Below, piece after piece: positions 819 to 29,190 of a DNA stretch of 34,358 bases. The notes under the pieces were generated by a model, which saw nothing but the letters and a program-made list of their open reading frames with translations, ran no database searches and had not been told where the DNA came from. Numbering within the stretch: position 1 is the first letter of the stretch; each line of letters opens with the position of its first letter. Origin of the DNA: Chthoniobacteraceae bacterium (lineage in GTDB: Bacteria; Verrucomicrobiota; Verrucomicrobiia; Chthoniobacterales; Chthoniobacteraceae); contig CANJNZ010000048.1 of assembly GCA_947476045.1 (NCBI GenBank), forward strand, positions 1-34,358, in the 5' to 3' direction. The translations under genes and the position numbers were made by a program.

Positions 819-1139
819 GACTTGGTGAGAGGCTGAGAAGACTTGCTGAGAGGCTAAGAAGACTTGTTGAGAGACTGAGAAGACTTGTTGAGAGACTGAG
901 AAGACTTGCTGAGAGGTTGAGAAGACTTGCTGAGAGACTGAGAAGACTTGGTGAGAGGCTGAGAAGACTTGGTGAGAGGCTGAGAAGACTTGCTCAGAGG
1001 CTGAGAAGACTTGCTGAGAGGCTGAGAAGACTTGCTCAGAGGCTGAGAAGACTTGCTGAGAGACTGAGAAGACTTGCTCAGAGGCTGAGAAGACTTGCTG
1101 AGAGACTGAGAAGACTTGCTCAGAGGCTGAGAAGACCTG
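819..1139. repeat. 21-bp tandem repeat array 1 (15 full units plus a partial)
   Basis: Fifteen complete units start at 819, 840, 861 and every 21 bp to 1113, followed by a broken sixteenth at 1134. The unit reads GACTTGCTGAGAGGCTGA followed by GAA. Only five positions vary: 7, 9, 14, 15 and 17. From unit 9 on, units containing CTCAGAGGCTGAG (a 5-bp stem with a 3-nt loop) alternate with units containing CTGAGAG, giving a 42-bp higher-order repeat. There are no spacers, so this is not CRISPR. Because 21 is a multiple of three, long open frames run through it on both strands. It lies between the truncated gene at 117-656 and the attC-like site at 1241. No function is assigned. Confidence 0.95.
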
Positions 1140-1240
1140 TTCCCGTCGGTCGCCAAAGCGCCGCCCCTTTGCTGATGTTGTTTTTCTTCAACCATAGACC
1201 CAGTGAACCACGCCCACCGGATCCCTCTCATGTCATCTAT

Positions 1241-1323
1241 ACGCTGCAGCGAACCCGGCCATCGCGTCACTGTTGCAATCCACGCCTCTCGCGGGCCGGG
1301 TCGCTGAGCTTGGGTCGTTAGGC
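1241..1323 (+). other. attC-like integron recombination site, 5' end degenerate
   Basis: The arms CGCTGCAGCGAACCCGGCC (1242-1260) and GGCCGGGTCGCTGAGC (1294-1309) pair, leaving one extra G and one extra A unpaired on the 5' arm. Such extrahelical bases are typical of folded attC sites. The 3' end is GTTAGGC at 1317-1323, an exact match to the integron core site GTTRRRY. The matching RYYYAAC box expected near 1225-1235 is absent, so the 5' boundary has decayed or been replaced. No integrase gene is present in the window. The identification rests on motif and fold only. Confidence 0.6.
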
Positions 1324-1710
1324 ATTTCTGCGTGTGTCCCGAGTAACAAAAGCCAATGAAGCGGAAACTTATTCCACGCCTGTGAGCAGCGACACCTTCC
1401 ACGCAGTCACCGAGTATCCCGTTACCGTGTATCACTGCGGAGCACACGCGGGCGATCAGGTTCGTCTGCGCCACGACATCGTTGTGCGCGAGCACGACGG
1501 CGCTCCGACTGGCGAGGTCCATCGCGCAGGCGAGGTCTGGACAGTTCTCTGCGGTTCAGCCGAGCAGCCTCCCGTCATCTGGCTCCGCCAGCCCGATGGT
1601 CAGTCGCACGTTTGGTCAGACGACTCAGATTTCCTTGTCACTTTCGAGCTTCTGGCGCGCCCTCAGCCCAGCGACACCGACTCGAATCTCAAATGAACGC
1701 AACGCCTAAT
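1317..1710 (+). mobile_element. Probable relict integron gene cassette
   Basis: The segment runs from a core-site motif GTTAGGC (1317-1323) through one small ORF to GCCTAAT (1704-1710), which differs from RYYYAAC by its last base. The motif begins 7 nt after the ORF stop, the compact layout of integron cassettes. The remainder of the downstream attC is not recognisable, since the next gene begins about 150 bp later without a second folded arm. This suggests a cassette that was captured once and can no longer be excised. Its neighbours are ordinary chromosomal genes. Confidence 0.45.
1334..1696 (+). CDS. Small cassette-type hypothetical protein
   Basis: A protein of up to 120 aa, beginning at GTG 1334 or more likely at the in-frame GTG at 1382, which would give a product starting SSDTFHAVTEYPV. 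It is soluble, with no signal peptide or membrane segment. The body is a beta-rich stretch containing CGAHAGDQVRLRHDIVV and a GEVWTVL segment, ending in acidic residues. I do not recognise a characterised domain. The segment resembles a small SH3-like or cupin-sized beta fold, but that is a guess. Its position between an attC-like site and an inverse-core motif suggests that it entered as a gene cassette. It has no operon partner. Confidence 0.6.
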   Translation: MSRVTKANEAETYSTPVSSDTFHAVTEYPVTVYHCGAHAGDQVRLRHDIVVREHDGAPTGEVHRAGEVWTVLCGSAEQPPVIWLRQPDGQSHVWSDDSDFLVTFELLARPQPSDTDSNLK

Positions 1711-1862
1711 CCCTATGAAAGGCGTCAAGGTGGAGCGTAAAACAAGTTAGTTTTCGTCTCAGTTCTCTTTTCCCAGCTAACCCCTGACTGTCCACCAAAT
1801 CGAGTCAGACTCACAGTTCTGTGGTCTTCAATTGTATGTTGCTCAAAACGCTGGGAGTCGAG

Positions 1863-4800
1863 ATGAAGTGGCACGATATGAGACTCTTTACTTTCCTCGC
1901 ATTTCTTTCGTCGTCCGTTTTTGCGCTCGCGCAGTCGGGGGTGGACGGGGATGCGAATGGGGTTTTGCTGAAGCCGATCCCGGACAGGCTGGTGGTGCTG
2001 ACTTTTGATGATGCTCCGGCGAGTCATGCGACGGTGGTTGCGCCCATTCTGAAGTCGCTGGGGTTTGGCGGTTCGATTTATGTGTGCAACTTCGATTCGT
2101 TCAAGACGCGGAAGGACTGGTATCAGACTTACCGGCAGATGAACGCGATGCACGCGGATGGGCTGGAGATTGGGAATCACACTTACGGGCATGGCGGGGG
2201 ACTGGAGAATTATTTGCGGATGGAGGATGAGGTGATGGCGAATGGCGGGCCGAAGATGACGACGGTGTGCTGGCCGATTTACCAAGTGGTGTGGCCGATT
2301 ATTCCGGGGCTGTTGCAGCATGGTTATCTGTTCGGGCGCGGCGGGCATGAGCGACCCTACCGGCCCACGGTGGATAATCCTTTTGATGTGCCGTCGTTTT
2401 CGATGACGGATGGGGTATCGAGTGAGAATTTCATCAAGGCGGTGCAGCAGGCGTGTCGGGGCCGGGTGGTGGTGCTGACGTTTCACGGGGTGCCCGATAT
2501 GGAGCATCCGCCGGTGAGTCTGGAGCCGGTGATGTTCAAGGCGATGATGCAGTATTTGAAGGACAATAATTACCAGTGCATCGCGATGCGCGACCTGGCG
2601 AAGTATATCAATGTGGAGAAGGCGGCGACACTGCCACGCACGGCGAATGATGCAAAAGGCGCGCCGCCGTTTGAGCGCCTGAAGGACGAAAAGCCGTTCA
2701 TCGCGCCGCCGTCGGGAGACATCCGGGAGTTTCGTTTTCCCGATCTGGCTCCGGCGAGGATTTCCAAAGGGGAGGTCACGGTGACGGTTCCGCACGCCAC
2801 GGATGTGACGGCGCTCGCGCCGAAAATCACGGTGTCCGCCGATGCGACGGTTGCTCCCGCTTCGGGTGCAGTGCGCGATTTTTCCAAGCCGCAGACTTAC
2901 ACGGTCACGGGGCGCGATGGGGCTGTGAAAAGCTACGTCGTCACGGTGAAGAAAACGCCGGTGAGCACTGCGAAGGATATGCTGACTTTCACGCTGCCGG
3001 GTGCGCGCTCGGTTGCGCTTTCGCAGAATCGCATCGCTGTTTATGTGCCTACGGGCACGGATGTGACCGCGCTGGCTCCGACGTTCACGCTGTCGCCTTT
3101 CGCCACGGCGGAACCCGCTTCGGGTGTGTCGCGGGATTTCACGAAGCCGCAGACTTACACGATCACTGCGCAGGATGGAACGTCGCAAGCGGTCGCAGTG
3201 ACCGTGGTGAAGAGCGACAAGCCGAACGCTTTCGCGTGGACGAAAGCGGAGGAGGGGAATTGGAGCGAGGCAGCACGGTGGACGGACAGTGCAGCCGCAC
3301 CGGTGGGGGCGGGTTCGCCGGACTACATTCTCAGTTTCAACCAAGGTGGCAAATGCACGGCGAAGAATAATCTGACTGCGGGATTTGTGCTGAACCAGCT
3401 CATCCTCGGCGAGCGCTCCGGCGGCCTCACGCTCAGCGGAAACGCATTCACTTTCACGAAGGAACCGGCGAACCAAATCCCGCCCGCGATCCGCGCTACG
3501 AAGTGCGGGATCGTGAACATCAACGTGCCCGTCGCGCTCCACGACGATCTCACCGTAAGCACCTCTCCTGACAAAGACCCCAATTGCTTCATCACGGTCA
3601 ACGAAGTCATCGCCGGCCCGCACGCGCTCACTTTGCAAAGCTCCGGCGATTCCAATGTCGCAGGCATCAATTTCCACGACGTGCATTTCGGCATCCTGCA
3701 AATCAACAACTCGAATACCTACAGCGGCGGGACGTTCATCAACGGCGGAAAAATCAACGTGCGGAAAAGCGACGGTCTCGGCGCTGGCCCCGTCACGCTC
3801 GACAGCTTCGGCACATTATCCACGGAGCGCGAACTCGCCAACCCCGTCGTCATCAACCAAGGCACGCTTTTTCACTGCAATTTAAGCGGCGGCATCAGGC
3901 TGAACGGCAACGCGGGTTTCATCGGCAACTGCACCGTCACCGGCAGCATGAGCGGACCCGGCGGCCTCACGATGTTTGGCACCAATGGCACCTATCTCAG
4001 CATGATCCCCGGCGGCACCGTCACACTCTCCGGCACGAACTCCTACACGGGCCCGACGAACATATTTCCCGGCACGCTCGTCGTGAAAAAAGGCGCCGCA
4101 CTTTACAACGCGGACGCCACGAAATGGACGGCGGCAAACATCACGATCCACAAAGCGGCAACGCTCCGACTGAATGTCGGCGGGTTCGGCGAGTTCACGG
4201 GCGAGCAAGTCGGCACGTTGCTGGGAAACCTCACGCGCACCGTGAAAGACAACGGAATGATGGGCGGCTCCTTTCTCTGTCTCGACACGGCAAGCGCGAC
4301 GCAGCCTGTCATCATCACCGCCAACCTCGGGGATTCCGAAGGCCCCAGCGGCGGCGCGTTTGTTTTCAAAAAATGTGGCAGCGGTGCGATACGACTTTCG
4401 GGCAACAGCACTTACACCGGCCAGACGATCCTTGAGAGCGGCAGCCTCAGCGTCGCGTCGCTCAACTGCTTCACCGAGGGCAAACGCAAAGCCAGCAGCA
4501 GCCTCGGCGCGCCCACGGACATCGAAAGCGGTGAGATCGTCATCGGTGAAGAAGGCAAGGACGGCGACTGCGCGCTCATCTACACCGGCAACGGCGAAAG
4601 CACCGACCGCGTCATCAACCTCGCGGGAAAAAACGCCACCGTCACCTTCGAGCAATCCGGCACCGGCCTATTGAAATTCACCAGCCCGCTCCTCATCTCC
4701 GGCTACGGCGCAAACAAGACCATCGCACTCACCGGCAGCGCCACCGGCATCGGCGAACTCGCCGCTACCATCAGCGACCCACATGACCGCGCCGGCAAAG

Positions 4801-5096
4801 CCACGACGGCGATCAACAAAAGCGGCACTGGAAAATGGATCCTCTCGGGCGCAAACACCTTCACCGGCCCGGTCACGATCAACGGCGGCACCCTCGCCAT
4901 CGCCAGCGAGCGCAGCCTTTCTCCAAAGTGTGAAATCACCGTCGCCAGCGGCGCGAAGTTGGAACTCAATTTCAAAGGCCAGATGAAAGTTCGCAAGCTC
5001 ACGCTCGAAGGCAAAGAGCAACCTGCGGGCACTTACTCGGCGACTAGTGCTTCGGGGTTTATCGGTGGAACCGGAGTCCTCATCGTCGGCTCTTAA
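1863..5096 (+). CDS. Secreted polysaccharide deacetylase with PATR-repeat tail
   Basis: A 1077-aa exported enzyme. The ATG at 1863 is preferred over 1821 because GGGAG lies about 8 nt upstream and the signal peptide then starts sensibly (RLFTFLAFLSSSVFALAQ). Residues 40-255 are a NodB-type deacetylase: LTFDDAP (metal-binding and catalytic Asp), NHTYGHG (the HxxxH metal site) and VVVLTFHG. Two Ig-like modules follow (about 285-460), each with a PASG...DF.KPQTYT(V/I)T signature. The C-terminal 600 residues hold autotransporter-associated PATR repeats such as NTYSGGTFINGG, NSYTGPTNI, STYTGQTI and NTFTGPVTINGG. These form a predicted beta-helix, with no outer-membrane barrel after it. It probably removes N- or O-acetyl groups from an extracellular or envelope glycan. 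A larger paralog starts 51 nt downstream. Confidence 0.88.
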   Translation: MKWHDMRLFTFLAFLSSSVFALAQSGVDGDANGVLLKPIPDRLVVLTFDDAPASHATVVAPILKSLGFGGSIYVCNFDSFKTRKDWYQTYRQMNAMHADGLEIGNHTYGHGGGLENYLRMEDEVMANGGPKMTTVCWPIYQVVWPIIPGLLQHGYLFGRGGHERPYRPTVDNPFDVPSFSMTDGVSSENFIKAVQQACRGRVVVLTFHGVPDMEHPPVSLEPVMFKAMMQYLKDNNYQCIAMRDLAKYINVEKAATLPRTANDAKGAPPFERLKDEKPFIAPPSGDIREFRFPDLAPARISKGEVTVTVPHATDVTALAPKITVSADATVAPASGAVRDFSKPQTYTVTGRDGAVKSYVVTVKKTPVSTAKDMLTFTLPGARSVALSQNRIAVYVPTGTDVTALAPTFTLSPFATAEPASGVSRDFTKPQTYTITAQDGTSQAVAVTVVKSDKPNAFAWTKAEEGNWSEAARWTDSAAAPVGAGSPDYILSFNQGGKCTAKNNLTAGFVLNQLILGERSGGLTLSGNAFTFTKEPANQIPPAIRATKCGIVNINVPVALHDDLTVSTSPDKDPNCFITVNEVIAGPHALTLQSSGDSNVAGINFHDVHFGILQINNSNTYSGGTFINGGKINVRKSDGLGAGPVTLDSFGTLSTERELANPVVINQGTLFHCNLSGGIRLNGNAGFIGNCTVTGSMSGPGGLTMFGTNGTYLSMIPGGTVTLSGTNSYTGPTNIFPGTLVVKKGAALYNADATKWTAANITIHKAATLRLNVGGFGEFTGEQVGTLLGNLTRTVKDNGMMGGSFLCLDTASATQPVIITANLGDSEGPSGGAFVFKKCGSGAIRLSGNSTYTGQTILESGSLSVASLNCFTEGKRKASSSLGAPTDIESGEIVIGEEGKDGDCALIYTGNGESTDRVINLAGKNATVTFEQSGTGLLKFTSPLLISGYGANKTIALTGSATGIGELAATISDPHDRAGKATTAINKSGTGKWILSGANTFTGPVTINGGTLAIASERSLSPKCEITVASGAKLELNFKGQMKVRKLTLEGKEQPAGTYSATSASGFIGGTGVLIVGS

Positions 5097-5147
5097 ATCC
5101 ATCAGGAAAAGGCCCGGCAGAGCTGCTCAAACGAAGAATTACCAACT

Positions 5148-13703: not shown

Positions 13704-13724
13704 GCCGCCTATTTTTCAGCGGCT
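13703..13724. terminator. Possible bidirectional hairpin between convergent genes
   Basis: AGCCGC (13703-13708) pairs with GCGGCT (13719-13724) around a 10-nt loop containing five T residues. The hairpin fills the 12-bp space between two convergent stop codons and overlaps the last codons of the minus-strand gene. No T run follows the stem on either strand, so termination is only inferred from position. Confidence 0.35.
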
Positions 13725-16700
13725 GTCACCAGTGCGCAGGAAGGCGATGAGATCGGCGAGTTTTTGCAGGTCGAGGGCGGCTTCGAGGCCGGCGGGCATG
13801 AGGGAGGCGCGGGTGCTTTGCAGGGCGGCGATTTCTTTGCGCAGCACGGGGCGGGTGGTGCCGTCGGGGAGTTTGAAGGTGATGCTGTTGGCGGTTTCGC
13901 TGGCGATGAGTCCGAAGACCTCGGTGCCGTCGGTGAGGCGGCACTGGTAGGCGTAATAGCCGGGCTGCACGTCGGCGCTCGGGTCGAGGATGTTGACGAG
14001 CAGTTTCTCCGGCGGATGGGCGGCGACGGAGACGAGGTTGGGGCCGACTTCGTGGCCGGTGTCGCCGAGCTTGTGGCACGTGGTGCAGAGCTGGGTGAAA
14101 ACGGCGCGCCCGTTGGCGGGGTTGCCGGTGAGTTTCAGCGCGGGCTGGAATTTTTTGATGACGTCGGCGCGGCTGGCGGGCGGGGCCGGAGCGTCGGGGC
14201 TTTCCGGCGCGGCGGCGACGATGGCGGGTGCGGGCTCGCCGAGGGCTTTGGCGAGCTTCGTGAGGGACGGGCCGAAAATCCGTAGTGGGTCGCCTCCACC
14301 CTTGGTCACGGCATCGGTCAGCGTGCGCACGTGCGGGACGGCGCTGCTCATCACCGCCGCGACGATGAACGGCTCGCTGCAGTCTTTCACGGCGAGGCGC
14401 GCGAGCGCATCGCCAGCGTCGGGGGTTTTCCACTCGCCGAGTGTGAATGCGAGTTGCAGGCGCACTTTGGCGTCCGGGTCGTTCACGAGCTTCGCGGCGG
14501 CGGCGATGATTTCCGGCGTGGGATGTTTCTCCGCGAGGCGCACGGCATTTTCGCGGACGCCGGGATGCGAATCAGTCAGTGCGCGGATGATGGCGGCAGG
14601 CGTTTCCGCGATGCACAGAGCGTGGAGGCGCGCGAGCGGGTTCGCGCTTTCCGCGGCCATCTTTTCCAAAAGCGGGAGTGCTGCCGCGTCGGCGCGCCAG
14701 ACGAGCATCATGTGCGCTTTGTCGCGCTGCCATTCGTTCGGCGAATCGAGCGCGGCGACGAGTTCGGCGGTGCTGAGTTTGTCGAGGCGGGTGATTTTTC
14801 GCGGAGCGACACCGCTCGGCAAAACGCGATAGATGCGCCCGCGGTCGTCGCCGAGTCGGTAGTGCGGGAGCAGCTCGGCTTTGCCTTCCTCCGGCAGCCA
14901 CTCGGGGTGCTCAATCATGTAGCGATACATGTCCACGACCCACAGCGCGCCGTCGGGGCCGGTGCGGGTCATCACGGGGCGGCACCAGCGGTCTTCGCTG
15001 GCGAAAAATTCGCGCTGCTCCTCGCCCGGTGCGCGGCGCGCGGTGAAGCTCACGCCGGAGTCGGTGACGACGTTGTGCTGCACGAGATTGTGAAACGGCT
15101 CGCACGTGAATGCGTGCTGTTCCGGGCCGCGACCGAAGAGCAATTCGTCGCGGTAAATCATCCCGCTGCACGCGCTGGTGAAGTGCCCGCTTTCGCCGAA
15201 CGAATGGTAGCGTTTTTCCAGAGCGCTCGCGGGCCAGACTTTCGGATTCAGCGGCACGACGACCTGCTGTTGCGGATTGGGCGCGGCGACGTGCGGATTG
15301 CGCGCGAGGTAGTGGTCGGCCAGCACGTAGTGCCAAAGCGGACGCGAATTCTGCGTGCCGAACCAGTGCCCCCAATCGTCGCGGTTGCGCCCGAATTGCG
15401 ACGGCCCGCTCTCCGCCTCGAGTTCGCCGGTGTCGGGGCGAAAGCGGAAGTCGCGCGAGCCGACGAGCACGTCGACGGTTCTCGTGTGGAGCTTTGTGCC
15501 CATGCCGTATTGGCCGTGATGCCCGCCCGCCGCGCAATACACCCAGCCGTCGAGTCCCCAGCGCAGGCCGTTCGCGCGGAGCTGCTGGTTGCCCGTGGTC
15601 AGGCCGCTCACGAGCACCTCGCGCGTGTCGGCTTTTCCGTCGCCGTCGGTGTCGCGGAGAAAAAGCACGTCGGGCGCGGCGGTGACGATGACGCCATCGC
15701 GCCACGTGAGCAGGCCCGTGGGAAAAGTGAGGCCGTCGGCGAAGAGCGTGGACTTGTCGTAGCGTCCGTCGCCGTCGGTGTCTTCGAGCACGCGCACGCG
15801 TCCGCCGGGTTTGCCGTTACCATCCATGCCGAGCGGGTAGTCGGCCATCTCGACGACCCACAGCCGGCCATCGGACGACCAATCAATTGCCACCGGGTCC
15901 ATCGTCAGCGGCTCGCTCGCGACCAGCTCGACGGCGAAGCCCTCGCGGACGTGGATTTTCTTCAGCGAGTCGGACGGCGAGAGTGGCGGCACGATGGCGG
16001 GCGCGACGGCAGCGGCGGCAGGCGGTGTCTGCGCGGAGGCTTGGTAAAGCGCGGCGATTTCCGCGGCGGAGAGCGCGCGTGGGAAGATGGCGACTTCATC
16101 CAGCTTGCCCTCGAAGCCGAACGTCCCGTCATTGCGTCCGCCGAGAAAGATGGTGCCGTCGCCCGCCGGAACGGTGTGCGCGAATTCGCCCGCCATCTCC
16201 GGCTCGGCGCGACCGTCGAGATGGACGCGGACCTTTGCGCCCTCGCGCACGAGCGTCACGTGATGCCAGGCGCGCAGTGCGAGCGGCGTGCGACCCACGA
16301 GCAGTTCGTCGCGCTCGTTCCCGTTGAAAAGGATGAGTTTGCCCGTGAGGTCGGCGCGCGAGGTGCCGCCGATGCCGAGGTGCTCGCCGCGCGCAGCTTT
16401 GTCGCCATCGGGGCCGCGCGAGAAGGCGTAGCCAGTGACGGCGCGGGTGTTGGGCGGAAGGCCGTTCCAGAGCCAGAGCGAGACGGTGTAGTTTTCGCCG
16501 AGCGGCACATCCGCGCGGACACACCCGCCTGCGAAATGTGCGGCGCGGCCTTTTGCAAAACCTTCGAGATACAGCGCCACGCCGTTCTCAAATTTCGCGT
16601 CGTGTTTGCCCGTCGCGTCGCGCGCGGTGGGAATGCTCATCTCGTCGAGCCGCCAATACGCGAGCGGCTTCGCGTCGAGCACGGCGCGCGAGTAGGGCGT

Positions 16701-18104
16701 CGGTTCGTCCACGAGCGGACGGCGCGGTTTGCCGACGACCTCTTCCAGCAGGCCGAGCAGTGCTTCGACGATTTGCGGCTCGGCGTTCACTTCGAGTCCC
16801 GCCGTGCGCGCGGGCCACGTCGTGTAGCCGCCGAGCGCGTGCTGCTCAGGCGGCGGGATGTAGCCTTCGGCTCCGTTCGCGAGTTCGACGTTGAACGTCG
16901 CGGCGAGCGGCGACTGGCGTTTCAGTTTCAGGCCGGTGATGGCGAAAACTTCGTTCGGGAGGGCGGTCAGGCCGAGGTCGCCGATGCGCAGCGCCTGGAG
17001 TTTGAGTTCGGTCTTCTGCCGCTCGTGCAGTTCGATGGCTTCGAGCGCGTAAATCTGCGCCTGCGATTGCGGGAGTTTTTCGCCGAGCTTCGCCGCGACC
17101 TCGCGCGACCAGGCGAGACGTTTTTCATCCGGCACGCGGTAGGTGAGCGCGAGCGTGCGCTCGGCCATTTTCAACGGCGCATCGTCACGCCACTGGATGC
17201 CGCGCACCATCGCGGCCACGCGCGCGGCGATGGCTTTCGCGTAAGCGTCGTAGCCGATGTCGCGAGCCGGCGAGCCGTAGTCCATCCACATCAGGTCGCC
17301 GCTCGTGCCTTGCGACATGATGCTCACGAACGCCTCGCCCGCGCCGAGTTCCGTGGCGATGTGTTTCGCAAAGCGCCCGTAATAATCCGCCGAAAGCAAC
17401 GGCGAGCCGTAGTAGTGCTGGGAGTAGTTGGCGAAAAGCGCGAGCGGTTTCCCCTCGCGCGTCTGCACCGCGAGCACGGAGAGTTGCGGGTCCACCGGGC
17501 CGCTCGGGCCGATGGCGTCCGGGCTTTGGTGGCCGGGGTGCATGTTGGCGCGCACGTTCAGTTCGCCAAACGGGTCGCGCAGCATTTTGTCGGGCCGGCG
17601 AATCCAGCGGCGGTTGAAAGTGTGCTCCGCGTCGTCCTCCTGCGCCCAACCGATGCGCGCAGGCTGCAAGCGCTCCACCGCGCCGACGATGGCCGCCGTG
17701 ATGCGCCCCGGCAGATAGCGCGCATACACCGGGTCAATGCGACTCCCGAGGCAGCCCATCGCCGACGGCGCGGAGTGCGTGTGCGTCGCGGAAACGAGCA
17801 TCCTTTCCACCGGCACACCCGTCGCCTTGCTCGCGTCGGCCTTCGCGCGGTCAATGAGGTCGCGCGCCATCATGCACGTATCCACCACGCACAGCACGAT
17901 GCGCGTTTTCCCATCGTCGAGCGCCAGCGCCTTCGCCGCGAGCGGGTCCACCACCTTGTCCGCCGAGCGCTCCGTGAACATGGCATTCACCCGCACGGGA
18001 AATTCCTGAGGTCCGATGTCCACGGAGAAAGCCCCGGCGCGGAACTCAGCGAAGGCGGCGCATTGGAGGGCGAAGAGAAACACAAAAGCGCGGAGGTTAT
18101 TCAT
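13716..18104 (-). CDS. Ceramidase-like / LamG / dehydrogenase-like / HEAT / cytochrome c fusion protein
   Basis: A 1462-aa secreted multidomain protein with leader NLRAFVFLFALQCAAFA. Residues about 20-450 match the neutral/alkaline ceramidase N-terminal domain, with LVSATHTHSAPSAMG and ANYSQHYYG supplying likely zinc-binding His. Residues about 480-690 are a LamG/concanavalin-like sandwich (AYWRLDE to LDEVAIFPRALSAAEIAALY). From about 710, VREGFAVELVASEPLTMDP opens the PVC dehydrogenase-like propeller with DTDGDG loops. HEAT-like repeats occupy about 1110-1290. A C-terminal heme domain has CTTCHKLGDTGHEVGPNL near 1335. Hydrolase and redox modules on one chain suggest cleavage of a lipid- or amide-linked substrate followed by oxidation, but the substrate is unknown. 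Many homologs carry these parts as separate genes. A long open frame on the opposite strand is a shadow. Confidence 0.87.
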   Translation of the reverse strand: MNNLRAFVFLFALQCAAFAEFRAGAFSVDIGPQEFPVRVNAMFTERSADKVVDPLAAKALALDDGKTRIVLCVVDTCMMARDLIDRAKADASKATGVPVERMLVSATHTHSAPSAMGCLGSRIDPVYARYLPGRITAAIVGAVERLQPARIGWAQEDDAEHTFNRRWIRRPDKMLRDPFGELNVRANMHPGHQSPDAIGPSGPVDPQLSVLAVQTREGKPLALFANYSQHYYGSPLLSADYYGRFAKHIATELGAGEAFVSIMSQGTSGDLMWMDYGSPARDIGYDAYAKAIAARVAAMVRGIQWRDDAPLKMAERTLALTYRVPDEKRLAWSREVAAKLGEKLPQSQAQIYALEAIELHERQKTELKLQALRIGDLGLTALPNEVFAITGLKLKRQSPLAATFNVELANGAEGYIPPPEQHALGGYTTWPARTAGLEVNAEPQIVEALLGLLEEVVGKPRRPLVDEPTPYSRAVLDAKPLAYWRLDEMSIPTARDATGKHDAKFENGVALYLEGFAKGRAAHFAGGCVRADVPLGENYTVSLWLWNGLPPNTRAVTGYAFSRGPDGDKAARGEHLGIGGTSRADLTGKLILFNGNERDELLVGRTPLALRAWHHVTLVREGAKVRVHLDGRAEPEMAGEFAHTVPAGDGTIFLGGRNDGTFGFEGKLDEVAIFPRALSAAEIAALYQASAQTPPAAAAVAPAIVPPLSPSDSLKKIHVREGFAVELVASEPLTMDPVAIDWSSDGRLWVVEMADYPLGMDGNGKPGGRVRVLEDTDGDGRYDKSTLFADGLTFPTGLLTWRDGVIVTAAPDVLFLRDTDGDGKADTREVLVSGLTTGNQQLRANGLRWGLDGWVYCAAGGHHGQYGMGTKLHTRTVDVLVGSRDFRFRPDTGELEAESGPSQFGRNRDDWGHWFGTQNSRPLWHYVLADHYLARNPHVAAPNPQQQVVVPLNPKVWPASALEKRYHSFGESGHFTSACSGMIYRDELLFGRGPEQHAFTCEPFHNLVQHNVVTDSGVSFTARRAPGEEQREFFASEDRWCRPVMTRTGPDGALWVVDMYRYMIEHPEWLPEEGKAELLPHYRLGDDRGRIYRVLPSGVAPRKITRLDKLSTAELVAALDSPNEWQRDKAHMMLVWRADAAALPLLEKMAAESANPLARLHALCIAETPAAIIRALTDSHPGVRENAVRLAEKHPTPEIIAAAAKLVNDPDAKVRLQLAFTLGEWKTPDAGDALARLAVKDCSEPFIVAAVMSSAVPHVRTLTDAVTKGGGDPLRIFGPSLTKLAKALGEPAPAIVAAAPESPDAPAPPASRADVIKKFQPALKLTGNPANGRAVFTQLCTTCHKLGDTGHEVGPNLVSVAAHPPEKLLVNILDPSADVQPGYYAYQCRLTDGTEVFGLIASETANSITFKLPDGTTRPVLRKEIAALQSTRASLMPAGLEAALDLQKLADLIAFLRTGDSR

Positions 18105-18220
18105 GGGTATAAAGGTGATGGCTATTTACGGCGAGGCAGCGAGATTAAATTAGAACAATACGCACGGGGGTTTTGAGGTGTTTGCGGATGTCATCATATT
18201 ACTAAACTCTGCTTCGCATC

Positions 18221-19655: not shown

Positions 19656-19797
19656 ACACACTTGAATTATATTTCAGTGTCCAGCCTGACGCTTGTGCAT
19701 AGCCGCCACGTCACACAACGTGGAGACTCAGTTTTACGTTGCGGTCTTGATTGCGCGTCACGGCATCCGCATCGTCGCACTTTCACCCGTTTCCAAA

Positions 19798-22407: not shown

Positions 22408-22426
22408 ACTCGATCACCGCGATTGA

Positions 22427-22638
22427 GGGCCAAAGGCCCGAATTCATACCAGCCTTGGGCAACGCCCAAGGTATGCTTGCATTTACGGACAAAGGGCTGA
22501 AAGCCCGGCACCATTTTCCGCGATGGAATACGTGGATGAATCGGACTTTCAGTCCTCTTGCCGTCTATGTTACCAAACCTAGGCCGACGCTCGTGCCTCG
22601 CTCTGGCCTAGGCTGGTATGGGCAGGGCCGTTGGCCCT
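22427..22638. repeat. Nested-hairpin palindromic element (REP/MITE-like)
   Basis: Five short hairpins have 3-nt loops. They are GGGCC-AAA-GGCCC (22427-22439), CCTTGGGC-AAC-GCCCAAGG (22453-22471), GGGCT-GAA-AGCCC (22494-22506), GGACT-TTC-AGTCC (22543-22555) and AGGGCC-GTT-GGCCCT (22624-22638). A sixth has arms CCTAGGCC (22578-22585) and GGCCTAGG (22605-22612). The whole block is roughly mirror-symmetric: CATACCAGCC (22445-22454) is the exact complement of GGCTGGTATG (22611-22620), and the two GGGCT-GAA and GGACT-TTC hairpins face each other. No coding frame of interest lies within. It occupies most of the gap between two genes read in the same direction. Confidence 0.85.
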
Positions 22639-22669
22639 CTCGCCGCATTTGTGACGAGTGCCTCTTTTG

Positions 22670-23785
22670 ATGAAACACCTCGCCATCACATTCACATCTT
22701 GCGCGCTACTCGTTTCCGCTGGTGCGGAAAATCCGCCTGCTGCGAAGAGTTATTTCTCCGATTGGATGACGAAGATGCGGCCCATGGTTCCGCGTGGATA
22801 TGTCTGCCAGCGGGCGGTCGCGGCTCCGGTGATTGATGGCAAACTCGATGACGCTGCGTGGGAGGCCGCGCCTTGGACGGAGAACTTTGTGGACATCGAG
22901 GGCGATGGGAAGCCGAAGCCGCGACTGCGCACGCGTGCGAAGATGCTCTGGGACGACGAATACTTTTACATCGCGGCGGAAATGGAAGAGCCGCACGTCT
23001 GGGCGACGATCACGAAGCGCGATGCGGTGATTTTCCAAGACCCGGACTTCGAGGTGTTCATGGACCCGGACGGTGACTCGCACGATTACTACGAATTCGA
23101 GATGAACGCGCTCAACACCGGCTGGGATTTGTTTCTGCCGAAGCCTTACAAGGACGGTGGAGCGGCGCAAAATGAATGGGACATCGCCGGATTGAAAAGC
23201 GCCGTCCACATTCGCGGCACGCTCAACAATCCCACCGACCGCGACGAGGGCTGGAGTGTCGAGATCGCCTTTCCGTGGAAAGCGCTCGCCGCCCACGCGA
23301 ATCGCCCGACGCCACCGCGCGAAGGCGATCAGTGGCGCATAGGTTTTTCGCGCGTCGAGTGGGACATCGAAACCACCGGCGGCAAAACTACCAAAGTCCC
23401 GAAAACACCGGAGCATAATTGGATTTGGTCTGCGCAGGGTGTCGTTGACATGCACCGGCCTGAGCGATGGGGCTTCGTGCAGTTCACCAATGAAACCACA
23501 CGCGGAAAGGTCGCCTTTCGCCCCGACTCGTCCGCATTTGCGCGCGACGTGCTGCACACGATCTACTACGCGCAAAAAGATTACTTCCAAAAAAACAAGC
23601 GCTGGGCCGCCACGTTCGACGAACTCGATTTCATCGCCCGCGCCGTGGACACGCTCGGCGCACCTACGCTAAAAATCACCCGCGACGGCTACGAGTGTGT
23701 CATCACCGACACCCAGCCTGGCGAAGCTCCCCGCCGCTGGCGCATCCAGCACGATGCGCGCATCACAGAAATCACCGGACCATGA
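22670..23785 (+). CDS. Secreted carbohydrate-binding family 9-like protein
   Basis: A 371-aa exported protein. The ATG at 22670 starts a signal peptide (KHLAITFTSCALLVSAGA). The core is a CBM9/DOMON-like beta sandwich: APVIDGKLDDAAWEAAPWT, then MLWDDEYFYIAAEMEEPHVW and DFEVFMDPDGDSHDYYEFE. These are the hallmark segments of the family 9-like group, which binds sugars or heme at the sandwich face. GWSVEIAFPWKAL and a long C-terminal tail with WRIGFSRVEW complete the usual arrangement. No catalytic residues are seen. Its stop codon overlaps the next start (ATGA), so the two are probably translated together. It likely binds an extracellular glycan. Confidence 0.85.
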   Translation: MKHLAITFTSCALLVSAGAENPPAAKSYFSDWMTKMRPMVPRGYVCQRAVAAPVIDGKLDDAAWEAAPWTENFVDIEGDGKPKPRLRTRAKMLWDDEYFYIAAEMEEPHVWATITKRDAVIFQDPDFEVFMDPDGDSHDYYEFEMNALNTGWDLFLPKPYKDGGAAQNEWDIAGLKSAVHIRGTLNNPTDRDEGWSVEIAFPWKALAAHANRPTPPREGDQWRIGFSRVEWDIETTGGKTTKVPKTPEHNWIWSAQGVVDMHRPERWGFVQFTNETTRGKVAFRPDSSAFARDVLHTIYYAQKDYFQKNKRWAATFDELDFIARAVDTLGAPTLKITRDGYECVITDTQPGEAPRRWRIQHDARITEITGP

Positions 23786-24948
23786 AAACCTCCATCCTCC
23801 CAGTGCTCGCTGTCTTCACGTTGCTCGCCGGTGCCTCGGCGGAACAAATTTTTAAGTGGTGGCCTGCAAGCACGGAGACTGTGCTGAAAGCTGCTGGTGA
23901 CAATCGCAAAGAACTCGTCTCTGCCCTTGCAAAAGTTCCCGACGAGCAGCGCGAAGCCATGAGCTTCCTCATCGAAAATATGCCACCTGTGGATCTCGCC
24001 TCGATGAAAGCCGACTTCCTCCTCGCGCACGTCGCGCAGGCACACCGAGACCTCGCCAGCGCTCCGTGGGTAAAACAAATTCCGCGCGATATTTTCCTCA
24101 ACGACATCCTTCCCTACGCGAGCCTCAACGAACGCCGCGACGACACGCGCACCCGCATTCGCGAAGTCGCCAGGGAAATCATCAAAGACTGCACCACCCC
24201 CGGCGAAGCCGCGCAGGCACTGAACCGCACCCTCTTCAAAAAGCTCAACGTCCGCTACTCCACCAAAAGAAAGAAGGCCGACCAGAGCGGAGCCGAGAGC
24301 ATAGAGAGCGGTCTCGCCTCCTGCAGCGGACTTTCCATCCTCCTCGTCGAGGCGTGCCGCAGCGTCGGCATCCCCGCCCGCGTCGTCGGCACGCCGATGT
24401 GGACGAATATGCACGGTAACCATACATGGGTGGAAATCTGGGACAACGGCTGGCACTTCACCGGCGCCGCCGAGCCCGATGCCCAGGGCCTCGATCGCGG
24501 ATGGTTCAAAGGCGACGCCTCCAAGGCCGACGACACCAAACCCGAGCACCGTATCTACGCCAGCAGCTTCAAGAAAACCGGCCTCGCCTTTCCCCTCGTG
24601 TGGGACCTCAGCATCCAATGGGTCCCCGCCGTGAACGTCACTGCCCGCTACACCGCCGCCGCCAAACCCGAGGACGAAAAGACCAGCGTGCGCATCCGCA
24701 TTCTTGATCGACCAGACGGCAAGCGCATCGCCGCGAAAGTCACTGTCACCGACACCGACAGCGGGGAAAAATACACCGGCACCAGCAGTGACGAAGCTGC
24801 AGACTTAAATAACATCCTCACCTTCCGACTGCACCCCGGCCACCACTGTCTCATCGAAACCACCTACGGAGGCGCACCAATTATCGACAAACTATTCGTC
24901 GAGAAAACGAAGGAGCAAATCATCACCATCCCGCTTGGCGGTGACTAA
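23782..24948 (+). CDS. Secreted transglutaminase-like protein
   Basis: A 388-aa product. The ATG at 23782 overlaps the previous stop by 4 nt and begins a signal peptide (KTSILPVLAVFTLLAGASA); the open frame upstream lies inside the preceding gene. The N-terminal third is helical. The transglutaminase-like core carries SGLASCSGLSILLVEACR (catalytic Cys), GIPARVVG and HGNHTWVEIW (catalytic His); an acidic residue in AAEPDAQGLDRGWF is the likely third member. The C-terminal 110 residues form a beta domain resembling carboxypeptidase-regulatory-like modules. Proteins of this fold act as proteases, amidases or cross-linkers, and this one would work in the periplasm or outside. Coupling to a glycan-binding protein suggests a role on cell-surface or substrate polymers. 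Confidence 0.85.
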   Translation: MKTSILPVLAVFTLLAGASAEQIFKWWPASTETVLKAAGDNRKELVSALAKVPDEQREAMSFLIENMPPVDLASMKADFLLAHVAQAHRDLASAPWVKQIPRDIFLNDILPYASLNERRDDTRTRIREVAREIIKDCTTPGEAAQALNRTLFKKLNVRYSTKRKKADQSGAESIESGLASCSGLSILLVEACRSVGIPARVVGTPMWTNMHGNHTWVEIWDNGWHFTGAAEPDAQGLDRGWFKGDASKADDTKPEHRIYASSFKKTGLAFPLVWDLSIQWVPAVNVTARYTAAAKPEDEKTSVRIRILDRPDGKRIAAKVTVTDTDSGEKYTGTSSDEAADLNNILTFRLHPGHHCLIETTYGGAPIIDKLFVEKTKEQIITIPLGGD

Positions 24949-24957
24949 ATTCGGACC

Positions 24958-25407
24958 ATGCCCCGTATCATCCTCTTTTCATTGATCCTGAGTTTGACAG
25001 GTTTCCGCGCGGTTGCCGGTGAAAAACAAGCGCACATGGTCAAAACGATGATCGAGGAAACGAACAATTTCCGCCGGAGGGAGGGGAGAAGACCTCTCAA
25101 AGTGAATGCAGAACTCACCGAAGCGGCGCAAAAGCACGCTGCGCACATGGCACGAAAGGAAAATATGTCCCACGATGGATTTTCCTTTTTCATCAAATCG
25201 TCGGGCTACAGCTACACTCGTCTGGCCGAAAACGTAGCCAGCTTTAGCGGTAGCTTTTCCGCTGTCGATGTCGTGCATGGATGGATGAAATCATCAGGAC
25301 ACCGCAGAAATCTTCTGGATCGAAGGCTTGTCGATTTTGGCATCGGCATGGCGCAGGGGAAATCCCACCGCTGGTATATCTGTCAGGATTTTGGATGTCC
25401 TCGCTGA
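24958..25407 (+). CDS. Secreted CAP-domain (SCP/PR-1-like) protein
   Basis: A 149-aa product with leader IILFSLILSLTGFRAVAG followed by one CAP domain. Typical segments are ETNNFRRREGRRPLKVNAEL, AAQKHAAHMARKENMSHDGF (cavity His) and LAENVA (cavity Glu). HGWMKSSGHRRNLLD (second His) and FGIGMAQGKSHRWYICQDFG follow. The domain is of normal bacterial length with nothing missing. CAP proteins are extracellular and bind lipids or act as proteases in some cases; the activity here cannot be told. It starts 9 bp after the transglutaminase-like gene and is likely the last gene of that operon. Confidence 0.88.
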   Translation: MPRIILFSLILSLTGFRAVAGEKQAHMVKTMIEETNNFRRREGRRPLKVNAELTEAAQKHAAHMARKENMSHDGFSFFIKSSGYSYTRLAENVASFSGSFSAVDVVHGWMKSSGHRRNLLDRRLVDFGIGMAQGKSHRWYICQDFGCPR

Positions 25408-25468
25408 AGTGAAAATTGATACAGTGCGTGGATCAAAGAATTGGACCTGACCGCAGCGGATACGGACT

Positions 25469-25957
25469 TCAAGGAGTAGGCTGCTTTTGCCTGCGCCAAA
25501 ATGCGTAGAAGGCCGCCATCGGTGCGGAGTAGAAAAGCATCCAGTGTCCGGAAAAACCACGCGCCTCCCAGGCTCGCAGCTGATTATATTCGGTCTCGGT
25601 GATCTCCTTGATGACGCGGCCGTGGTTTTGCTGAACATACTTTCCATCGCGCCTGCGCGGGCCTCCATTATAAGTATGAACAAGCAACATGGCAAAGTTC
25701 ACCAGCGCGTAAATAAAGAGCACTGTAATCAACAGACTCATCCATCGCGGTGCATCTGCAGGTGGGAACGAGCCTTGTTTGCCGGACGTGCTGTCTTTGT
25801 TGGTCCTGTGGATCATGATGAGGAAGAGCGGGAAAATTAAAACATGCATCGGCCAAACTTGTCCCATTTCCACGATTCTCCCCGGGATAAAGGACGACAG
25901 GTGAATCGCAAAACTAACCACCAACCCCAGAGCGGAAAGCAGGAAAAGGGGAAACAT
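25469..25957 (-). CDS. Four-helix integral membrane protein of unknown function
   Basis: A 162-aa protein starting at the ATG at 25957, which shares its A with the stop of the upstream gene (TAATG). Four hydrophobic segments are visible: FPLFLLSALGLVVSFAIHL, VLIFPLFLIMI, LLITVLFIYALVNFAMLL and a shorter WMLFYSAPMAAFYAFW near the end. A hydrophilic, charged loop of about 40 residues lies before the last segment. The C-terminus is basic. No family is recognised. Overlap with the ABM gene points to coupled translation, but this does not reveal its task. A longer frame to 25990 would overlap the upstream gene further and is less likely. Confidence 0.7.
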   Translation of the reverse strand: MFPLFLLSALGLVVSFAIHLSSFIPGRIVEMGQVWPMHVLIFPLFLIMIHRTNKDSTSGKQGSFPPADAPRWMSLLITVLFIYALVNFAMLLVHTYNGGPRRRDGKYVQQNHGRVIKEITETEYNQLRAWEARGFSGHWMLFYSAPMAAFYAFWRRQKQPTP

Positions 25958-26319
25958 TACTTCGCCACACCGCACTCGAAGGCGAACCACGTTGGGTTCA
26001 GCGCGCTCATCGCGGGCTTGAGCTTTTCGAGTTCGGCGGCGGGGCCGTGGAATTCCAGACGCAGCAGGTCGGAGATTTTCAGCGCTTCGTCGAGCAGGTC
26101 GCCGACGTTGGTGATGTGGGCCAGCGTGGCTTCTGCGCCGATGTAGCTTTCGCGGCAGAAAATCACGTCGTCCGAGATGGTGAAGTCGTAGCAGAGGCAG
26201 TCTTTTTCAGTCGTGGTGCGGGCGACGAACTGCGGGAGCAGTGCCTTGAATGCGTCCATTTTTCCGGCGTGGACTTTGAAATACGGGTGGATGCTGACGA
26301 CGTTGTTTTGCTGGCTCAT
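25957..26319 (-). CDS. Antibiotic biosynthesis monooxygenase (ABM)-domain protein
   Basis: A 120-aa cytoplasmic protein with the dimeric alpha/beta-barrel pattern of ABM proteins. It opens VVSIHPYFKVHAGKMDAFKA, then CLCYDFTISDDVIFCRESY and a helix AALxHI-type stretch (EATLAHITNVGDLLDEAL). Members oxidise small aromatic or quinol compounds without a cofactor, or act as heme-handling enzymes, and many have unknown substrates. The length is close to the family norm. The start codon overlaps the stop of the upstream oxidoreductase by 4 nt and its own stop overlaps the next start. It is therefore the middle gene of a tightly coupled three-gene unit, perhaps acting on the same metabolite as the oxidoreductase. 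Confidence 0.82.
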   Translation of the reverse strand: MSQQNNVVSIHPYFKVHAGKMDAFKALLPQFVARTTTEKDCLCYDFTISDDVIFCRESYIGAEATLAHITNVGDLLDEALKISDLLRLEFHGPAAELEKLKPAMSALNPTWFAFECGVAK

Positions 26320-27470
26320 GGTGTTGTGTTGTTGGTTGAAATTTCCACGGCGCGCTTCTCCGTGTGCGAGACGAGCGCGGCGGCGAAAAGCTCGTGGCTG
26401 AGCACCGCTTCATCCGGCGTCGCGCAGCCGAAGCGCCCGCCGAGCGAACCGGCGCGCTCCGCAGCGAAAGCCGCCAGCATTTGCTGAAAGCAATCCGCAA
26501 ATCCCGCCTCGAAAATCCCGCCCGTGACCACGGGGAACGCGCTGTCCGCCATGCCCACATCGTAGCGCTCCCACACCTGCTCCTTGCCGCGCCGGAACTG
26601 CCACACGGTCTTCGGCTCCTTCGTGGAAAAGCGCACGCCGCCATCGGTGCCGAGCACTTCGATGAACCACGTATTCATTTCGCCCGGCGCGAGACGCTTC
26701 GTTTCCAGCCGCATCGGCACGGTGCCGTTGGGGTGTCCGGGGATTTCCACATCGCAGTGCAGCATCGCGTTGTCCCACGTGTCGCAAGCCGCCATGCCGC
26801 CTTTGCCGTCGGGTCGCTCGTGCGTGATTTTTTGAAGCTGCGCATACACGTGCGCCGGACGCCACCCGAGGCGGAACGGCACGTGGCAGGCGTGCATCCC
26901 GAGGTCGCCCATGACGCCGATGGCTCCGCAAAATTTCACCTGCCGCTTCCAGTTGATCGTCTTCGCCGGGTCGAGATCGCTCGCGTGCCAGAAGCCGCTG
27001 CGAATCTCCAGCAAATGCCCCAACTTTCCCTCGCCGATCACCCGCAGCGCGCGCTGCACGCCCGGCAGGAATGGTAGTTCCGACGAACACCGCACAAAGC
27101 GCCCCGTTTCCCGCGCCACGTCGCGAATTTTCCGCGCCGCCGCGAGATCAATCCCGAAAGGTTTCTCCGCCAGCAAATCCTTCCCCGCCCGCAGCACGTC
27201 GAGATAGAGCGCTTCGTGCAGATGATGCGGCACCGCGACATACACCGCATCGAGTTCCGCATTCGCGAGCAGCTCGCGCGAGTCCGCCGTGATTTGCCGC
27301 ACGGTCGGGATTTGCCGGAACCACTCGCGCGTCTTTTCCGCGAGGTCGCACACCGCCGCCAACTCGACCCGCACGCCGACATCCGTGAGCGCGCACCAGC
27401 GCCCGATGGCGCTCGCCATTTCCCGTCCCATAAGCCCGCCGCCGATGATGCCGAGTCTGAGTGTTTTCAT
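26316..27470 (-). CDS. Cytoplasmic Gfo/Idh/MocA-family oxidoreductase
   Basis: A 384-aa protein with no export signal. The N-terminal Rossmann fold starts LRLGIIGGGLMGREMA, giving GxGxxG, and its second strand ends AAVCDLAEK. LLAEKPFGIDL carries the catalytic Lys of the EKP motif near residue 105. VMGDLGMHACHVPF gives the conserved substrate-binding His region. The C-terminal half is the family beta-sheet domain. These enzymes act on sugars, inositols or related polyols with NAD(P). It differs from the Tat-exported relative at 9553 in location and in having the canonical EKP. It is the promoter-proximal gene of the overlapping trio that runs leftward. Confidence 0.9.
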   Translation of the reverse strand: MKTLRLGIIGGGLMGREMASAIGRWCALTDVGVRVELAAVCDLAEKTREWFRQIPTVRQITADSRELLANAELDAVYVAVPHHLHEALYLDVLRAGKDLLAEKPFGIDLAAARKIRDVARETGRFVRCSSELPFLPGVQRALRVIGEGKLGHLLEIRSGFWHASDLDPAKTINWKRQVKFCGAIGVMGDLGMHACHVPFRLGWRPAHVYAQLQKITHERPDGKGGMAACDTWDNAMLHCDVEIPGHPNGTVPMRLETKRLAPGEMNTWFIEVLGTDGGVRFSTKEPKTVWQFRRGKEQVWERYDVGMADSAFPVVTGGIFEAGFADCFQQMLAAFAAERAGSLGGRFGCATPDEAVLSHELFAAALVSHTEKRAVEISTNNTTP

Positions 27471-27569
27471 GCAGTCCGCGCGTTCTAGCGGGGGAAAGGG
27501 GCGTGTGGAAAGGGAAAGTCACACCGCCCGCACGGACGCGCCGCTGAATCTCTGGAGTGTTCTATTTTT

Positions 27570-27661
27570 AATTTGGAAGCCATGAAGCCATGAAGGGAAG
27601 ATTGTCACCCCAATTGGATTAGCCGACTTCAGTTCATTCCTAGTTTCCTGGCTTCCAAATT
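27570..27661. repeat. Inverted repeat with 12-bp perfect arms
   Basis: AATTTGGAAGCC (27570-27581) is the exact reverse complement of GGCTTCCAAATT (27650-27661), with 68 bp between. CATGAAGC is directly repeated just inside the left arm. The element sits in the 252-bp gap between divergent genes, which otherwise shows no coding or clear promoter signal. It may be a small dispersed element; a genome-wide copy count is needed to say. Confidence 0.6.
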
Positions 27662-27722
27662 TGGACACCACCTGAATCTCCCGCGTCTTGCGTTGCGCGG
27701 CGGCGATTGGCAAAAGGCGGCG

Positions 27723-28478
27723 GTGAACGAAGAACCTCCAGCCAAACGCCGCCGCCCTGGGAAACTTTGGTGGTGGATGCTCGCGATCTTTCTCGGTGTG
27801 TGCGGCTGGCAAATGTGGAAGCTCAACGCCTACGAAAATGCCGTATGGGAGGCGAAGGTGGCACACTTCACTTGGGAGTGCGACGACGCCATCAGCCTCA
27901 TTCGTCAGGATTGGCACAATGCTCTGAAAAAGGAGACATGGGGAACTCACCCCCGCGTGCTTGGCATGGGAGAAGTCCCTGACCTTGGCCGCTACCGAGA
28001 AATGCTCCACTTACTCCGTCCCACGGTATTACGTGTCTCGGCATGTGAAAATATGGACGACCTCAAGAACGTCGTCGGTCTGCAATCTCTCGCTCTCAGC
28101 AACTGCCCCACACTACAGAACGCGGACGTTCTGAAGGGCCTTACCGGCCTGCAAATGCTCGATCTTAGCGAATGGACCGCGCTGCAAAACGTGAATGCTC
28201 TCAAGGGTCTCACCACCCTGCAAGAGATCAACCTCACCAACTGCACCGCGCTGCAAAACGTGGACGACCTCAAGGACCTCACCGCACTGCAATTGCTAAA
28301 CCTCCGCTTCTGCCGCTCGCTGCAAAACGTGGACGGTATCAAGGGCCTCACTGGACTGAAGGAACTCAACCTCTACAGCTGCAATAAAATCCCCGCTGCC
28401 GCGCTGCGCGAACTGCGTGCTGCCCTGCCGAATACCGACATCACCTTCCCCGACGGCACCAAGAACCCGCCGCAGTAA
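27723..28478 (+). CDS. Membrane-anchored leucine-rich-repeat protein
   Basis: A 251-aa protein. GTG 27723 is preferred over TTG 27693 because AAAGG lies about 5 nt upstream. A basic N-terminus (PAKRRRPGKLWWW) precedes one transmembrane segment (MLAIFLGVCGWQMW), so the remainder is probably outside the cytoplasm. From about residue 115, five leucine-rich repeats of about 23 residues appear, for example LQNVNALKGLTTLQEINLTNC and LQNVDDLKDLTALQLLNLRFC in overlapping form. The matching 69-bp DNA repeat with CTGCAAAACGTG shows recent expansion. Such repeats mediate protein binding. A short tail follows (ALRELRAALPNTDITF), typical for LRR ends. The gene ends just before two 21-bp repeat arrays. Confidence 0.82.
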   Translation: MNEEPPAKRRRPGKLWWWMLAIFLGVCGWQMWKLNAYENAVWEAKVAHFTWECDDAISLIRQDWHNALKKETWGTHPRVLGMGEVPDLGRYREMLHLLRPTVLRVSACENMDDLKNVVGLQSLALSNCPTLQNADVLKGLTGLQMLDLSEWTALQNVNALKGLTTLQEINLTNCTALQNVDDLKDLTALQLLNLRFCRSLQNVDGIKGLTGLKELNLYSCNKIPAAALRELRAALPNTDITFPDGTKNPPQ

Positions 28479-28536
28479 AGCGCCGCTGCCCCCGCCAGCC
28501 CCATCGGGCTACAGAGAGGCTTCTCTGAGGAAAAGA

Positions 28537-28827
28537 GGAGCGTTATCGGACGGCGGAATAACGTTATTGGACGGAGGAGTAACGTTATTGGACGGTGGAA
28601 TAACGTTATTGGACGGCGGAGTAACGTTATTGGAAGGCGGAGTAACGTTATTGGAAGGCGGAGTAACGTTATTGGACGACGGAATAACGTTATTGGACGG
28701 CGGAATAACGTTATTGGACGGCGGAATAACGTTATTGGACGGCGGAATAACGTTATCGGACGACGGAATAACGTCATTGGACGGCGGAATAACGTTACTG
28801 AACAGCGGAATAACGTCACTGGAACCA
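28537..28827. repeat. 21-bp tandem repeat array 2, palindrome-bearing (13 full units)
   Basis: Thirteen 21-bp units start at 28555 and every 21 bp to 28807, preceded by an 18-bp partial at 28537. The unit is GGAATAACGTTATTGGACGG plus a final C. Units starting at 28555, 28597, 28681, 28702 and 28723 contain AATAACGTTATT, a perfect 12-bp palindrome; most others keep ATAACGTTAT or TAACGTTA. Divergence grows toward the right end (TCA, TAC replacements of TTA). One plus-strand frame would encode GITLLDG heptads. There are no spacers, so it is not CRISPR. It lies between the LRR gene and the kinase gene. Confidence 0.95.
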
Positions 28828-28896
28828 ACGGTATGTTGGCCTGTGAAGTTCTTGGATTACCCTCCACCTTCCATGGGCGTCCCTGCGCTTCCCGTG

Positions 28897-29190
28897 GACG
28901 ACCCCGCCGGGAATTTGGACGACCCCGCGCCAAAGTTTGACGACCCCGCCAAGTTTTTGGACGAACCCGCGCAAAGTTTGGAGCACCCCGCCGGGTTTTA
29001 GGACGAACCCGCCGGGAATTTGGAGCACCCCGCGCAAAGTTTTGGGCACCCCGCCGGGTTTTTGGACGAACCCGCCAGAAATTTGGAGCACCCCGCGCAA
29101 AGTTTTGGGCACCCCGCCAGATTTTTGGACGACCCCGCCGGAAATTAGGAACACCCCGCACGAAGTTTGGAGCACCCCGCGCGAAAAGGG
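28897..29190. repeat. 21-bp tandem repeat array 3 (14 units, 63-bp higher order)
   Basis: Fourteen units begin at 28897 and every 21 bp to 29170. They share a G(A/G)(C/G)(G/C)A(C/A)CCCGC core followed by an A/T-rich tract such as GGGAATTTG, CAAAGTTT or GGGTTTTTG. Units 6-8, 9-11 and 12-14 repeat as trimers, giving a 63-bp higher-order period. The sequence is unrelated to array 2, which ends 70 bp earlier. The degenerate stretch 28875-28896 may be an older unit. Long frames are open through it on both strands because the unit is a multiple of three. The remaining 240 bp to the kinase gene hold only degenerate, GC-rich sequence. Confidence 0.93.

Follow-up and report, generated by a model that had tools for sequence, protein, structure and literature searches.

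The stretch analysed here, called the window throughout, comprises 34,358 nucleotides from a Chthoniobacteraceae bacterium (phylum Verrucomicrobiota; GenBank assembly GCA_947476045.1, contig CANJNZ010000048.1, positions 1 to 34,358) and carries three tandem repeat arrays of the same 21-base-pair (bp) period, designated W1, W2 and W3, the first of which lies next to a truncated gene from a multi-copy orphan protein family. An earlier note on this DNA had reported three 21-bp arrays with mutually unlike units and had attributed the shared period to a common constraint, namely helical phasing, a reading frame of seven codons or an amplification mechanism with a fixed measure. The arrays and the family gene are located as follows.

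117..656, minus strand: gene of family A2 near the contig start, truncated after residue 174 (profile match to residues 1-174, E=3.5e-91)
819..1136, minus strand: array W1 with the 21-bp unit GACTTGCTGAGAGGCTGAGAA, assigned with Tandem Repeats Finder (TRF) and by its position before the A2-family gene (locus L309)
28541..28823, no strand: array W2 with the 21-bp unit CGTTATTGGACGGCGGAATAA, which includes the dyad AATAACGTTATT (TRF)
28895..29180, no strand: array W3 with 21-bp units and a 63-bp higher-order repeat (TRF)

Results

Three unrelated arrays share one period

W1 (15.1 copies) and W2 (13.5 copies) both showed 91% matches and 0% indels in TRF, and W3 was found as 13.6 copies of a 21-bp unit with 65% matches and 7% indels, being better described by a 63-bp higher-order unit at 28966-29180 (3.4 copies, 90% matches, 0% indels). 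When the units were compared at their best rotation against column-permuted units, the similarity was no better than chance for W1 and W2 (p=0.48), and W3 proved equally unrelated to W1 (p=0.82) and to W2 (p=0.81). These results bear out the existence of three 21-bp arrays of mutually unlike units, the coordinates given earlier being correct to about 10 bp. The same lag scan applied to 753 kb of block-shuffled sequence returned 0 arrays, which argues that the 21-bp arrays are not a product of chance.

The survey for further arrays took in 1.147 Mb of the organism's own genome assembly (4.37 Mb, 123 contigs). TRF detected 14 arrays with period 21 in this sequence, together with arrays of period 42 (2), 63 (1) and 84 (1); apart from coding leucine-rich repeats (LRR) of 69/138 bp, all arrays of at least 200 bp were multiples of 21, and the remaining periods were mostly short or coding. 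The sharp peak at 21 bp over many sequence families predicted by the earlier note was therefore present in the 1.147 Mb. Three relatives from the same genus (G001, G002, G004) likewise show 21-type arrays with still other unit sequences, so that a step of 21, 42 or 63 bp recurs across many unrelated units in this genome and its relatives, in line with a common constraint. Such arrays were rare in 1.17 Mb of contigs from Chthoniobacterales and other verrucomicrobia sampled around an unrelated gene, and the phenomenon is confined to certain loci.

Many arrays are located at contig ends (C38, C89 and C79 in this genome; C22, C85, C174 and C289 in G001), which suggests that short-read assemblies break at them and that their number is probably underestimated. 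Short 7-bp repeats, many of the AATCCGC/CAATCCG type, are also scattered across this genome and the genus as a whole (in this genome at L024:792-843, L032:1323-2451, L052:14587, L068:5145 and L070:4123). Although 21 = 3 x 7, a consistent 7-bp sub-period was not seen within the 21-bp units.

The arrays precede genes of an orphan protein family

Gene calls around the arrays revealed that small proteins recur just downstream of them: A1 (233 residues), A2 (213 residues) and a 222-residue relative by size and layout, the whole multi-copy family spanning about 210-235 residues. Ten genomes of the genus were searched for A1 and A2, loci with a real gene start were retained (n=39), and for each locus the best-scoring upstream repeat lag was taken among lags 5-69. 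The top lag was 21, 42 or 63 in 38 of the 39 loci, the exception being L289, where lag 8 came first and 42 second. Lag scores ranged from 9 to 161, compared with a shuffled maximum of 6.5, and after removal of the 11 loci that had suggested the rule it held for 27 of 28. The array ended 52-408 bp before the start codon of the family gene.

As a control, we examined the 648 genes of the organism's own genome that had enough upstream sequence. A 21-type array lay upstream of 13 of them: every one of the 5 family genes, and 8 of the 643 others (hypergeometric probability ~1e-9, calculated by hand). Among these 8, some have a family gene diverging from the same array or, in the case of L035, a repeat that is itself coding. 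Beyond the genus, the association was seen again in further genera of the same bacterial family (L341, L346, L348, L350), in a member of the same order and in two other families of the class (L351, L352, L354, L360, L362, L363, L369); there it is frequent rather than universal.

With regard to the proteins themselves, A2 consists, when whole (213 residues), of a helical N-terminal part and a fibronectin type III (FnIII)-like C-terminal part, the FnIII match being weak (Pfam fn3, E=4.2e-6 at best, among paralogs). A1 and the 222-residue protein matched no Pfam family, searches of PDB and PHROGs gave nothing useful, and the single-sequence fold model of the window protein was poor (mean predicted local distance difference test score, pLDDT, 44). 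A plasmid or phage origin was considered and rejected, as tblastn returned no match for the 222-residue protein in plasmids or for the 233-residue protein in phages, and no A1 or A2 relatives were found in viral contigs. At L279 and L280 the reading frame of A1 extends past its called start in the upstream direction, reading as a tryptophan-rich peptide (MPWDTGFWDGG...), and some members may thus begin earlier than called.

The register is kept while the unit sequence drifts

Similarity between units of different loci fell with the identity of the adjoining proteins, the mean z being 5.8 at protein identities of at least 80%, 1.2 at 65-80%, 1.1 at 50-65% and about 0 below 30% (Spearman p=1.4e-6). 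This decay indicates that gene and array are inherited together and that the array sequence changes quickly; a machine amplifying repeats de novo to a fixed measure, one of the causes proposed at the outset, is thus not needed. At the orthologous W3 locus of G000 and G001, indels within the array measured 21 bp and indels in the nearby flank 1 and 2 bp. Among 508 units we counted 2147 substitutions and 14 single-base indels, the latter number being biased towards low values, since ungapped detection does not continue past a frameshift. Cumulatively, these data show that the register of the arrays is maintained while the sequence of the units drifts, faster than that of the protein.

Coding capacity, folding and dyad symmetry

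Variation in 44 arrays was free of codon-position bias (Fisher p=0.999). A truly coding 21-bp array is present in the same genome (L035:8636-8997, contig C90), where it encodes QPPPTGV repeats near a protein N-terminus, and in this control 96% of the variation fell at third codon positions. Further, stops interrupt every one of the six frames of the L042 array, and they also occur in W1, in the frame homologous to that of its paralogs. A frame of seven codons is therefore rejected as the general cause of the period, L035 alone being coding. By eye, coding heptads had looked attractive in L275, L268 and L270, and this candidate was abandoned in view of the missing bias over the 44 arrays.

Fold energies were below those of column-permuted arrays (mean z -1.8, combined z -12, 19 of 44 arrays below -2). 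Stems were in excess at loops of at least 2, with peaks at loop 4 (z 12.8) and loop 9 (z 10.5) and no excess at 0 or 1; the two peaks are two readings of one plan, in which a 4-bp arm, a 4-bp gap and a second 4-bp arm are followed by a 9-bp spacer. In some degenerate arrays (L299, L339, L341, L348) the inverted-repeat arms were the most conserved columns, the average effect being modest. A hairpin common to all arrays was considered and rejected, because the consensus dyad test was mixed and the window arrays showed no significant dyad, and the inverted repeat remains a tendency of the class only. G.T pairs were not in excess over A.C pairs in the stems (76 vs 69), as a test for an RNA strand, and Rfam yielded sub-threshold matches only in the window and none at gathering threshold in ten loci.

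Surroundings of the window arrays

W1 sits about 160 bp upstream of the A2 gene, and the arrays are flanked by the following features.

657..818, minus strand: spacer from W1 to the start codon, with a GC-rich block kept among paralogs and then an A/C-rich leader beside the ATG (comparison of locus sequences)
1137..1327, minus strand: terminal part of an insertion-sequence-like element that adjoins W1 exactly, with further copies in this genome on C36, C42, C26 and C59
27693..28478, plus strand: LRR-repeat gene ending 63 bp before W2 (gene call; Pfam LRR_4, E=1.9e-10)
28466..28540, plus strand: dispersed left-end sequence CTACAGAGAGGCTTCTCTGAGG adjoining W2 (pattern search, at most 3 mismatches)
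29219..29290, no strand: remnant of a third array type, resembling the array before the A1 gene on C33 (BLAST of 29219-29291 to array L087 of G001; comparison with L266)
29433..30353, plus strand: PfkB-family kinase gene downstream of W3 (gene call; Pfam PfkB, E=1.6e-23)

By eye we take the element at 1137-1327 to be IS110-like; insertion-sequence copies occur also at L257, L258 and L259, some of them at contig ends. The left-end sequence CTACAGAGAGGCTTCTCTGAGG was found in 5 copies in this genome and 7 in G001 by the same pattern search. A mobile-element reading built on the left-end motif CTACAGAG..CTTCTCTG was rejected, since several copies in only two genomes do not explain the array class.

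No family gene lies beside W2 or W3. W2 is weakly similar to arrays preceding A1 genes on C70 and C33, the units of W3 look by eye like the array on C195 of G001, which is itself beside an A1 gene start, and W2/W3 sequence recurs at several non-orthologous places in G001. From these resemblances we infer that W2 and W3 are detached copies of family-gene arrays. The intergenic DNA around W3 (28824-29430) is nearly identical to that of G001 and the neighbouring PfkB gene differs more, a pattern which may reflect either constraint on the intergenic DNA or recent exchange.

LRR genes with 69-bp coding repeats adjoin 21-bp arrays three times (window 28176-28351, L042:64-251 and L084:777-972), the array preceding the LRR gene start in both L042 and L084. 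Elsewhere in the window, two very long open frames overlap on opposite strands, 13716-18104 (minus) and 14331-18176 (plus), the plus frame being without a Pfam match and the codon model favouring the minus frame. The segment 1821-9206 encodes two long proteins in which passenger-associated-transport (autotransporter) repeats are fused to polysaccharide deacetylase domains, one of them with an additional GDSL lipase domain.

Discussion

Based on the position and the constant step of the arrays, we propose, with a probability of roughly 0.45, that they are a cis-acting upstream element of the multi-copy orphan protein family which is held to two helical turns and read by its geometry. W1 is then best read as one such element, its family gene being truncated, and W2 and W3 as detached copies. 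The element would act as double-stranded DNA, in which a step of 21 bp, equal to two helical turns, would set every unit on one face of the helix, so that a protein could assemble along the same-face units; gain or loss of whole units would alter the length of the element and leave its phase unchanged. The element would probably be read by the orphan protein that the family encodes or by a protein of nucleoid type, and the likely effect would be on transcription of the downstream gene. An element of two helical turns with protein assembled on one face explains both the 21-bp step and the position before the gene.

Several observations weigh against this proposal. A two-turn element alone leaves the protein's tolerance of any sequence unexplained; recognition of shape or of inverted repeats is our guess. 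The dyads of W1, W2 and W3 were not significant (z 0.26, -0.70 and 0.36, respectively), so the inverted repeat is not universal, and compensatory changes in stems were not in excess, striking as single examples look (L084, L275). A 10.5-bp harmonic within the units was not beyond chance, which leaves the number 21 as the sole direct evidence for helical phasing; the phasing suggested in the earlier note is compatible with the arrays. To these must be added the downward bias of the indel counts, the absence of an array at several distant homologs (L356, L357, L359, L361), one array with a 22-bp unit (L368), a lag of 64 at a few loci (L340, L318, L320), and the arrays that precede other genes or stand alone. 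Finally, 41 of the 44 arrays had an open sense frame, slightly more than the expected 34.

Among the alternatives, we consider it less likely, though a serious rival, that the arrays have no function: they would have stood beside an ancestral gene, be copied along with it, and grow and shrink by slippage and unequal crossing-over, with the period inherited and the palindromes arising from hairpin-templated mutation. This would account for the decay of unit similarity with protein identity, as inheritance predicts, for the whole-unit indels between sister genomes, for the existence of detached array copies and for stem changes that are not compensatory beyond chance. However, between most loci the units have diverged to saturation, and even so the period is 21 in nearly all lineages examined, in several families; free indels should have made drift to 20 or 22 common, and the one fixed case seen was L368. 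The conservation of the inverted-repeat arms over the rest of the unit in the four degenerate arrays, modest as the effect is on average, also speaks against it.

We judge about equally likely, and likewise a serious rival, the view that the array is an RNA element, transcribed as a 5' leader or a separate RNA with one small hairpin per 21 nucleotides (nt), which binds a protein or controls translation downstream. The location 50-400 bp before the start codon would suit such an RNA, as would fold energies far under those of permuted arrays and stems enriched at 4-nt loops and absent at 0-1 nt, as hairpins require. Against this, there was no strand bias, the near parity of G.T and A.C pairs and the lack of excess compensatory change disfavour a reading at the level of RNA, sense folds were just slightly lower than antisense folds (mean -3.9, standard deviation 20), several arrays, including W1-W3, fold no better than permuted ones, the ten loci match no Rfam family at gathering threshold, and a fixed 21-nt spacing meets no obvious need of an RNA. 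That the arrays encode, on one strand, the seven-residue repeats of an unannotated protein is very improbable in spite of 21 being 3 x 7, of the excess of open sense frames and of the long open frames that cross several arrays (e.g. L269, L270, W2-W3), given the lack of third-position bias and the stops in L042 and W1.

Bacterial tandem repeats are usually treated as typing markers or as accidents of slippage. In the present case a single repeat length holds across dozens of unrelated sequences and goes with a gene family without an assigned role, in several families of one phylum. Constant spacing with varying letters in these freshwater bacteria and their relatives suggests that the cell reads the spacing and not the sequence. 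If spacing is indeed under selection, the arrays would represent a cis element that escapes searches for sequence motifs, and would offer a first handle on these orphan proteins; spacing and sequence are separable, hence one can be tested directly against the other. It is possible, if doubtful, that DNA elements of this kind form a class defined by geometry instead of sequence, namely arrays locked to two helical turns whose units change freely. Such arrays would go together with an orphan gene family throughout Verrucomicrobiota, and the protein reading them would respond to their spacing or to the shape of the inverted repeats, not to the bases themselves.

The open-access literature yielded no description of, or named system for, arrays that combine a locked period and free sequence with a tie to one gene family. 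The tandem array form as such is ordinary; it is this combination for which no counterpart was found in open-access papers. Iteron and operator arrays, such as plasmid iterons and those of the parC/tubC type, consist of direct repeats about 20 bp long beside a gene; they are often helix-phased and bound by an oligomerising protein, and the present arrays resemble them in repeat length and location. However, iteron sequence is conserved for its protein, whereas here protein pairs 70-77% identical often have units of chance-level similarity, the repeats are not conserved in step with a cognate protein (mean z 1.2 at 65-80% identity), and genes for replication or partition play no part.

Heptanucleotide repeats of the short tandemly repeated repetitive (STRR) type are alike in their constant unit length, and 7-bp arrays of the AATCCGC type are found in the same genome, but they are short and made of 7-bp units of related sequence, whereas the 21-bp units are without a consistent 7-bp sub-period. 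Repetitive extragenic palindromic (REP) sequences and bacterial interspersed mosaic elements (BIME), of which GTAG-type REPs have been reported in the verrucomicrobium O. terrae (PMC3733652), share with the present arrays short palindromic intergenic units. Unlike them, the arrays described here run head-to-tail over 5-20 units of locus-specific sequence; in place of a dispersed conserved palindrome with a GTAG or CGTC terminus, the units are unrelated, and those of the window are not significantly palindromic. Variable-number tandem repeats (VNTRs) or minisatellites in promoter regions, for example before phase-variable genes, are alike both in being tandem direct repeats upstream of a gene and in changing by whole units, as seen here in the 21-bp indels of W3. 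Promoter VNTRs, however, have units of whatever length slippage gave, whereas here one period is common to many unrelated units, and the arrays are tied to one gene family across several bacterial families.
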